From Halorussus rarus (GTDB lineage: Archaea; Halobacteriota; Halobacteria; Halobacteriales; Haladaptataceae), in NCBI RefSeq assembly GCF_003369835.1, contig NZ_QPMJ01000001.1, positions 186,001-250,000 on the forward strand: DNA of 64,000 nt, read 5' to 3'. Below, in pieces: positions 57,584-59,943 of this stretch. Within the stretch, counting starts at the first letter, position 1. Each line of letters starts with the position of its first letter. A program made the position numbers and the translations under genes. The notes under the pieces were generated by a model. The model had not been told where the DNA came from. It saw only the letters and a list, made by a program, of their open reading frames with translations, and did no database searches.

Positions 57584-58969
57584 TCACTCCTCGACGGGGT
57601 CGGTCTTCAGGAACTCCCGGAGCACGACGGTCGCGTACGACCCCTTCGGGAGCGCGAAGTCGAACGTCAGCGCCCCGTCGTCCGGGTCGCCGTCGTCCGA
57701 CTCGCCTGCGCTTCCGGTCCCGCGTTCGACGTCGAGGTCGGTCCGGACCAGGATCGCCCGCCGGGTCCCGGTCGAGTGGAACTCGCCCGGAAGGTCGAAG
57801 TCCGCCGGCGCGAGGTCGAGGTCGTCCAGCACCTCGCGCTCGACGTCGCCGGGCTCGCCGTCGGCCAGTTCTGTCTCGGTCCCGACCAGCGGCGCGGTCA
57901 CGAACGCCCGGCCGCGCTCGCAGTGGCGCGCGACCGTCTCGACCCGCCGGTCCGTGACGCGCTGCTCGCGGTCGGGGTCCGGCAGGGCGACGTCGCCGAC
58001 CGTCTCGGCGAAGCAGGCCACGTCGCCCGCGACGGGACGGTCGAATGGCAGTCCCCGCTCCAGGCGTTCGCTCAGGATGCGGTTGAAGGCGTACGACTGG
58101 GCGGCGTTGACGAACAGGCGCTGGAGGTTCGAGGGGACCGCTTCCAGCGCGGTCCGGAACTCCGCGGGGGAGTCGCCGCCCGATTCGACGAGGGCGTTCA
58201 GCATCGCGCGCTCGAACCCGAGTCGCCGGGGCGTGGCGTCCAGGGCGGCCTGCCAGTCCCGGTCGTCGAAGGCGTCGGCCACCTCCCGGCGGGCGCGCTG
58301 GCTGTCCTCGGGTTCGGTCTCGTATGGGTTGGCGACGTACTGCCTGACGGCCTCCTCCCACTCGCCGCGGACGACCCGGAGGCCGACCTCGTGGGTGACC
58401 GGTCGGCGACTGCCGAACCGCTGCTGGCCGAAGTAGTTGGGGACGCCGACGGTCCCCGCTGTGGAGTCCCCGCCGAACGCCGCCAGCTCCTCGCGAATCG
58501 GCTCGGCGTTCTCGGGGCGCTCGGGGTTTCGGACGACGATCTCGAACTCGTTGCCCGCGAGGTCGCCGAACTGGAGGCCGCGGCCGGCCCGCCCGACCAC
58601 TTCGACGTCGGCGTCGTAGATCGACACGTCCGCGAGATCCGCGGCGTCGACCTTCCGGAGGGTGAACAGCTGGGTCGTGACCGCGTACTTGTCCTTGGTG
58701 CCGGCCCACGAGACCCGCTCGCGGCTGATGCCCAGCGCGTCCGAGAGGCGCTTGGCGAAGTCGTTGGTGTCCCACTCCCGGAGGGTGGCCCGGACCACCA
58801 GGAAGGGGTACGAGCCGGGGTCGGCGTCGGCGGGCTCGGCGCCGAACCGCTCGACCTCCCGGACCCGGAAGTCCTCGGGCGACTCGCGGAGGCGGCCGCC
58901 GACGCCGTCCGCGTCGCTGACGAAGAAAGCGATGCCGACCGCCCGCTCGACTGGGTGCGCCTCGCGCAT
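57584..58969 (-). CDS. truD: tRNA pseudouridine(13) synthase TruD
   Basis: The 461-residue enzyme makes pseudouridine at tRNA position 13. The catalytic Asp lies in [12 protein letters not shown] (about residue 94), and the TruD-specific domain [10 protein letters not shown] with insertion DYFG-like motif is present. The start at 58969 ([13 protein letters not shown]) is chosen over upstream starts because the frame before it has no conserved residues. The leader region ahead of it contains the inverted element pair at 59109. Confidence 0.93.
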
Positions 58970-59108
58970 TCGTGTCGGGGTTGGGGGTCGGGTCGCTTGT
59001 ATCTGACTTCCTGCGATGAACAACGCGTACGTGAACCAGGCGGGAGGCGGAACGACGAACCGCAACAGAAGTACGAACCAACGAGCACGAATGGAGGAAG
59101 AACGCCCA

Positions 59109-59222
59109 GAAAGCCCCCGCCCGGTCGCGGTCGCTCAGCGACATATCGGCGCTCTCCGCACCGCCCGCGCCGATAGAGGTCGCTGAGGCGACTACAATGA
59201 ACGCGACCGGGCGGCCCCTTTC
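59109..59222. ncRNA. Structured 114-nt element, copy 1
   Basis: On the minus strand the element reads 5' GAAAG-GGG then a 13-base arm (CCGCCCGGTCGCG), then three hairpins, then the complementary arm (CGCGACCGGGCGG), GGG and CTTTC. The closing stem is 5 + 13 bases around a GGG/GGG bulge. The three arms are GTCGC-CTCA-GCGAC, TATCGGCGC/GCGCCGATA, and GTCGC-TGA-GCGAC. Whether it is transcribed is unknown. Copy 2 at 59408 is in the opposite direction. Confidence 0.7.
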
Positions 59223-59407
59223 ATCCACCCCACGGCACCGCAACCGCAGTCCTCGACCCTCCCCAGCCTCCTGCGCTTCTCGGCCTACGGCCTGCGATGC
59301 TCGTCCCTCGCGGGGCGAAGGCGCGACACGAGGTCGCGCCAGCACGCGCCACTGGCGGAGTCTTCCACGAGCGACGACGAATCGACCGAACCACCGCGGG
59401 CGGGACT
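59223..59407. other. Structured spacer between the two inverted elements
   Basis: This 185-base segment has no gene. It contains an 8-base hairpin GGCGCGAC-ACGAG-GTCGCGCC (59320-59340), a short GGCC-TAC-GGCC hairpin and CCC-TCGC-GGG. Because it also folds, the whole region 59109-59521 may be one transcribed unit or a mobile element body. Confidence 0.55.
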
Positions 59408-59521
59408 GAAAGGGGCCGCGGGCTCGCGTTTACCTGGTCGTCTCGGCGACCCCTATCCGAGGCGAACCGAAGGTGAGCCGAGGATATGTCGGCGAGCGAC
59501 CGCGAGCCCGCGGGGGCTTTC
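59408..59521. ncRNA. Structured 114-nt element, copy 2 (inverted relative to copy 1)
   Basis: On the plus strand: GAAAG (59408), GGG, arm CCGCGGGCTCGCG (59416-59428), hairpin GTCGT-CTCG-GCGAC (59437-59450), then TATCC-GA-GGC-GA-ACC-GAA-GGT-GA-GCC-GA-GGATA (59454-59486). After that come GTCG-GCGAG-CGAC (59488-59500), arm CGCGAGCCCGCGG (59501-59513), GGG and CTTTC. Both arms of the closing stem differ from copy 1, but both still pair. The second hairpin has tandem G-A pairs between its helices. Confidence 0.7.
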
Positions 59522-59604: not shown

Positions 59605-59943
59605 TCAGTACAGCGACAGATGCCCGGTCACCTTGTCCACCAGGTCGTCGTCGGCCGGGCCGACCGCCAGCGCAGTGACCGTGCCCGGGTCGAGCTGGGT
59701 GTGGCCGGCGTCCCGGACGACCGCGTGGGGCAGCCCCTCGGCGCGGGCCTTCTCGGCGAGTTCGAAAATCTCGCTCTCGCCGTCGGCCTTCAGGACGACC
59801 TTCTTCTGGCCTTCCCCCTTCCACCGCTTGCGCGCCTTGCTCCCGGTGTCCTCGTAGGCCGACAGCGCGGCGTGGGCGACCTGGGCGGCCAGCTTCCCCT
59901 GGCCCATGCCGATGTCCGTGCGGGCGACGATGGCCTGCTTCAT
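59605..59943 (-). CDS. pth2: Peptidyl-tRNA hydrolase, archaeal type (Pth2)
   Basis: The 112-residue enzyme frees tRNA from stalled peptidyl-tRNA. Family motifs are [20 protein letters not shown] at the N-terminus and [17 protein letters not shown] near the end. Start at 59943; TATA-like TCTATACG lies about 28 bases upstream, consistent with a leaderless transcript. It is divergent from dcd. Confidence 0.93.

Follow-up and report, generated by a model that had tools for sequence, protein, structure and literature searches.

The window analysed here is a stretch of 64,000 nucleotides from a Halorussus genome (4.37 Mb, contig C1), in which the spacer between truD (57584-58975, minus strand, start codon approximate) and pth2, a peptidyl-tRNA hydrolase gene named from its sequence (59605-59943, minus strand), holds two hairpin-forming elements. 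Copy 1 (59109-59222) lies on the minus strand like both flanking genes, is 114 nt long and reads GAAAGGGGCCG...CGGGGGCTTTC on that strand. It is preceded by a 5' tag, GGGTGGAT (59223-59230, minus strand), assigned from the statistics of the GG.GGR tag given below, and then by a 5' domain (59231-59356, minus strand; GCGCG..GCGAGGGACGAGC..GAGGCTGGGGAGG..) that represents a second repeat and is also found at other copies (L002, L009, L012 and L027) and in other genera. Copy 2 (59408-59521, plus strand), again of 114 nt, has the opposite orientation, with its 5' end and its tag GGGCGGGACT (59398-59407, plus strand) toward copy 1. The two inverted copies 185 bp apart that a first-pass annotation had described were thus confirmed, together with the paired changes it had noticed between them (CCGCGGGCTCGCG to CCGCCCGGTCGCG with the matching change in the partner strand, and TATCC/GGATA to TATCG/CGATA). 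Both fold far more stably than shuffled sequence, with z values of -6.5 for copy 1 on the element strand and -5.7 for copy 2. Most probably the two copies are passengers in the pth2-truD spacer.

An alignment of 22 full-length copies, made by sequence alone, gave a consensus of 37 pairs, 15 of them with double-sided changes, and was used to build a covariance model. The consensus fold is one long hairpin in which the element ends pair over 5+13 bp, with GAAAG/CTTTC (5 bp) followed by an invariant GGG/GGG internal loop and a 13-bp stem. Inward of it come a variable bulge of 8-15 nt (a small arm in some copies), a 12-bp stem and the TATCC arm, which carries two interchangeable tips. The four-way junction first proposed for these elements was not supported and was rejected. 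Minimum free energy folds, RNAalifold and covariation agree on a single long hairpin, nested throughout and with a bulge or arm at its side, and in a count of both sets of pairings the variable columns covaried under the nested fold only, not under the local arms. The two outer "arms" of the junction in fact pair with each other and covary. In some variants (L007, L019, L022, L023 and L029) the second stem is separated from the closing stem by an additional block, TCTCGTGAGCGAAGCGAACGAGA..CGTCTTCCGGTGG, of about 80 nt, and some copies bear extra arms at this place.

The claim that the structure is conserved as a single strand was, by contrast with the junction, strongly supported by covariation across 140 copies. 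In 95 distinct Halorussus copies 98.5% of the pair cells are standard pairs and double changes occur at 22 of the 37 pairs, amounting to 267 double-change cells against 57 in shuffles. The 45 matches from other genera, fitted to the covariance model (which somewhat favours the consensus pairing), have 96.6% standard pair cells and double changes at 28 of the 37 pairs, with 237 double-change cells against 62 in shuffles. None of 500 shuffles reached this level of covariation, and the signal was lost when the partner was shifted by one to three columns. The stems of the other genera are quite different in sequence, for example GGGCGTGTCGCG, ACGCCGCTGGCG and GAGGGGATCGCG, each with a matching partner.

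G-U pairs make up 1.0-1.75% of the hairpin pairs. We considered this low share as proof of pairing at the DNA level and rejected it, since the RNase P RNA of the same genus is similarly low (about 2% in the three sequences counted), so that the share cannot separate RNA from DNA. On the element strand a genome-level count of events gives more G-T than A-C (47:24, p=0.009), which hints weakly at RNA; the excess is not upheld when columns are counted (31:22).

With copy 1 as query and a cutoff of E<=1e-3, BLAST retrieved 42 matches from the genome, far more than chance would give, the strongest apart from the query itself having an E value of 2e-34. The first-pass annotation would have been refuted had no further copies with conserved pairing turned up; the covariance model located about 40 loci in the window's Halorussus genome and more throughout the class. 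Copy number in other Halorussus species goes from 0 (G009), 1 (G014) and 6 (G005) up to at least 64. Within class Halobacteria the model matched in 54 of 292 genomes and 23 of 77 genera, and in a phylum-wide sample matches were confined to the same order. Relatives of the hairpin were also found on 19 haloarchaeal plasmids, where the best-matching places have no annotated gene. The hairpins are 109-125 nt long in 96 Halorussus copies and 103-116 nt long in other genera. Rfam gave no match at E<=5 in the window region and, at the Haloarcula locus described below, only matches below the gathering score. We also considered carriage by viruses and rejected it, as no contig in IMG/VR matched the one pattern queried and phage records did not match the queries used.

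Gene positions were taken from a gene model trained on an annotated H. salilacus plasmid, and by this measure 138 of the 140 copies are intergenic. The copies lie between ordinary genes in every orientation: 54 are tandem-sense, 33 tandem-antisense, 27 divergent and 20 convergent, the rest being unassigned. Such freedom speaks against a fixed role in a UTR or as a terminator, and a terminator or 3'UTR element was rejected for this reason. No TATA peak appears upstream of the Halorussus copies, and only 3 of 94 have a T5 run downstream. Among close pairs (<=1.5 kb) 15 of 16 are inverted, as in the window. An autonomous element enclosed by facing hairpins was sought and discarded, because only ordinary genes were found between them (such as triose-phosphate isomerase and aminotransferase pieces) and no transposase was found between close pairs.

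Each unit of the family joins a 5' tag, GGGTGGRCT, to an imperfect palindrome some 103-125 nt long. The motif GG.GGR is found within 11 nt upstream of 89 of 96 Halorussus copies, against a background of 2.3%. Farther upstream some copies have tandem units of about 26-31 nt, one to six in number and specific to the species, and others the second repeat, which precedes five copies of the window genome and occurs in other genera as well. The downstream side has between none and four direct repeats, about 54 nt long, whose last part duplicates the 3' arm of the hairpin. The flanks of the hairpins are their own tandem repeats. Species-specific units of both kinds can be seen at L092, L100, L108 and L110, and the 3'-arm copy of the 54-nt units could pair with the hairpin's 5' arm instead. 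The second intergenic repeat, GCGCG..GCGAGGGACGAGC..GAGGCTGGGGAGGCGTGAGG (59231-59356 in the window), was found both beside hairpins and alone, and in the aroA-aroC spacer (L221) it is present as a large inverted repeat.

A tree of the Halorussus copies requires 32 changes of genome, compared with 48.6 in shuffles (minimum 44), and a tree of the copies from elsewhere requires 9 against 20.6. Copies thus cluster by genome, indicating multiplication or homogenisation inside each genome. H. caseinilyticus has four hairpins in a stretch of about 7 kb with genes for aromatic amino acids, and three of the four are identical (L206; G002 C1:1923785-1931039). The 3' flanks of the three identical copies, of 115 nt, diverge exactly at the hairpin end; about 28 nt of 5' flank are common to two of the three and at least one case differs beyond the tag. 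Two genomes with truD genes 96% identical (G004 and G015) have at least five hairpin loci in common. At the loci where they differ the whole intergenic spacer has been replaced, and at one of them, L287, the hairpin has lost an internal part; copies disappear by deletions of this kind. Of the 16 Halorussus genomes whose truD-pth2 spacer could be read, 9 carry a copy there in the orientation of pth2, indicating that copies can be old and kept; in one of the nine (L081) this sense copy has itself been reduced to a remnant by deletion, and internal-deletion remnants lie at truD-pth2 in some other Halorussus species. No clean pair of empty and filled sites was seen at truD-pth2, at aroA-aroC or at five G004/G015 loci, nor a clean insertion with or without a target duplication at the sites compared. 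The Y1 transposase (PF01797) is absent from the window genome and five other copy-rich genomes (G000, G001, G002, G003, G010 and G011 were searched, with 28 to at least 64 copies each), so an IS200/RAYT engine is not supported and mobilisation of this kind was rejected.

A different arrangement was found in Haloarcula, whose genomes have one to four copies each, at loci on plasmids such as pNG500 and pHH126, the latter from Haloarcula hispanica. At all 11 Haloarcula loci fetched, a divergent gene annotated as SOSS complex subunit B (OB fold) lies about 500 nt from the hairpin. This SOSS-B-like gene, the product of which has a zinc-finger-like C-terminus, is located at L312:860-2011 and at 11 further Haloarcula loci (L319-L329); the Halorussus genomes searched contain no homologue of the protein at E<=1e-20. 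In 15 of the 17 Haloarcula loci tested a TATATAA box precedes the hairpin by 266-272 nt, and the intervening leader is highly conserved. Part of this leader is common to the small plasmids pNB101 and pHLAJ5II, as a stretch of about 150 nt, GGCGGTCCCATCGTG..GCGAGTGCCGGATGGGTGAAAGCCCGG..CCTCGTTCCGGCGAG (L312:2268-2430; pNB101 2196-2334; pHLAJ5II 2727-2902), which matches no Rfam family and could represent either an RNA or a signal for replication. Judged from its sequence, the Haloarcula unit looks like a promoter-driven non-coding unit with the hairpin as its 3' part.

We consider it somewhat probable that both copies of the window belong to a dispersed, transposase-free family of intergenic palindromic repeats that is present across class Halobacteria and spreads by means of its hairpin. 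The family is apparently undescribed so far. The first-pass annotation had left the choice between RNA and single-stranded or mobile DNA undecided; in Halorussus the copy number, the patchiness, the clustering by genome, the free orientation and the missing promoter signal all favour a dispersed, mobile repeat. Copies would multiply within a genome through a hairpin of single-stranded or cruciform DNA, which some trans-acting enzyme, other than a Y1/IS200 transposase in the window genome, may nick and join; alternatively, they could be copied by gene conversion limited by the hairpin. Pairs would form as neighbours in inverted orientation, the way BIME/REPIN elements do, and the pairing would be maintained because the folded strand is the substrate. 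Several observations count against a dispersed repeat: the replaced spacers in G004/G015, the old copies that were kept, the fact that no enzyme was found, the Haloarcula hairpin sitting at a single site within a promoter-linked conserved unit, and the G-T excess at genome level.

The last two points belong to the main rival, which we regard as possible although rather doubtful, namely that the hairpin is a functional structured RNA domain, read within longer transcripts, that binds a protein or stabilises or terminates the RNA, the Haloarcula locus being the complete gene. It is strongest in Haloarcula, where the TATATAA box at fixed spacing, the conserved leader and the constant SOSS-B neighbour suggest a gene, and in view of this promoter-linked unit the family may have an RNA function. 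Covariation combined with invariant internal loops and tag, the G-T excess over A-C on the element strand and a mild sense bias among tandem genes (54:33) also agree with it. However, the Halorussus copies have neither promoter signal nor T-run, copies are also located in divergent promoter regions and antisense, sister species have none or nearly none (0 in G009, 1 in G014), and Rfam contains no match. A further reading is an archaeal system similar to SINEs, in which a TATA-driven non-coding RNA of haloarchaeal plasmids, encoded opposite an OB-fold (SOSS-B-like) ssDNA-binding protein, ends in the hairpin, and promoterless hairpin copies have been scattered over the chromosomes of other genera via a hairpin nucleic-acid intermediate; we think this unlikely.

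An architectural or protein-binding DNA site using the cruciform (for the nucleoid, a topoisomerase, replication or partition) would also be palindromic, intergenic, free in orientation and often arranged in inverted pairs, and the Haloarcula copies lie on plasmids beside the gene of an OB-fold protein. But a range from 0 to at least 64 copies within one genus would be surprising for an essential site, and the stem sequences are specific to each genome, which makes such a role quite improbable. Even less credible is a mutational by-product, in which template switching would correct the quasi-palindrome and so hold the arms complementary with no need of selection. The very few unpaired cells (1.5-3.4%) and the deletions typical of palindromes would fit, but nearly every copy leaves the GGG/GGG internal loop and the side bulge unpaired, neither having been corrected.

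The dispersed-repeat interpretation that we prefer can be compared with known systems. That no named family has this form, as was first supposed, holds for Rfam. Of the kinds already described, the nearest are the SMR-A small mobile repeats of Haloquadratum walsbyi (HqIRS42, HqIRS43 and HqIRS55), which are about 110 bp long with prominent inverted ends, lack a transposase and occur in dozens of copies per genome, commonly >95% alike within a type (PMC3119063). The hairpin family resembles these haloarchaeal elements in size, inverted ends, lack of transposase and copy number. Compared by description, SMR-A differ in that they target the near-terminal palindromes of PATE/IS605 elements (PMC3119063), whereas the hairpin copies are intergenic, 5'-tagged and mostly 70-87% alike. 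In 97 kb of Haloquadratum plasmid sequence the covariance model gave no match. Bacterial REP, BIME and REPIN elements, served by RAYT (Y1) transposases, are also tagged intergenic palindromes, often in inverted pairs, but REPs have 20-40 bp and tags of the GTAG/CGTC type (PMC3733652), in contrast to the 103-125 nt and GGGTGGRCT tag found here and to the six copy-rich genomes without a Y1 transposase. PATEs, which have no terminal inverted repeats and carry near-terminal palindromes related to IS605, and MITEs, whose ends are those of a transposon and which often duplicate their target (PMC3119063), are likewise non-coding, transposase-free haloarchaeal repeats; no sign of either relation was seen for the hairpins in an analysis that covered Y1 transposases in six genomes and the genes between close pairs. 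By analogy we favour a family that would work like SMR-A or the bacterial REP elements, yet is probably distinct from them.

Haloarchaeal genomes contain many unannotated intergenic repeats, and this hairpin family is common to much of the class, while its copy number differs more than sixtyfold between species of one genus. This sharing, the conservation of the base pairs and the range of copy numbers make it a natural test case for the spread of repeats without a transposase. The Haloarcula locus, for example on pHH126 of Haloarcula hispanica, offers a direct handle on whether the hairpin acts as an RNA, as a DNA substrate or as both.
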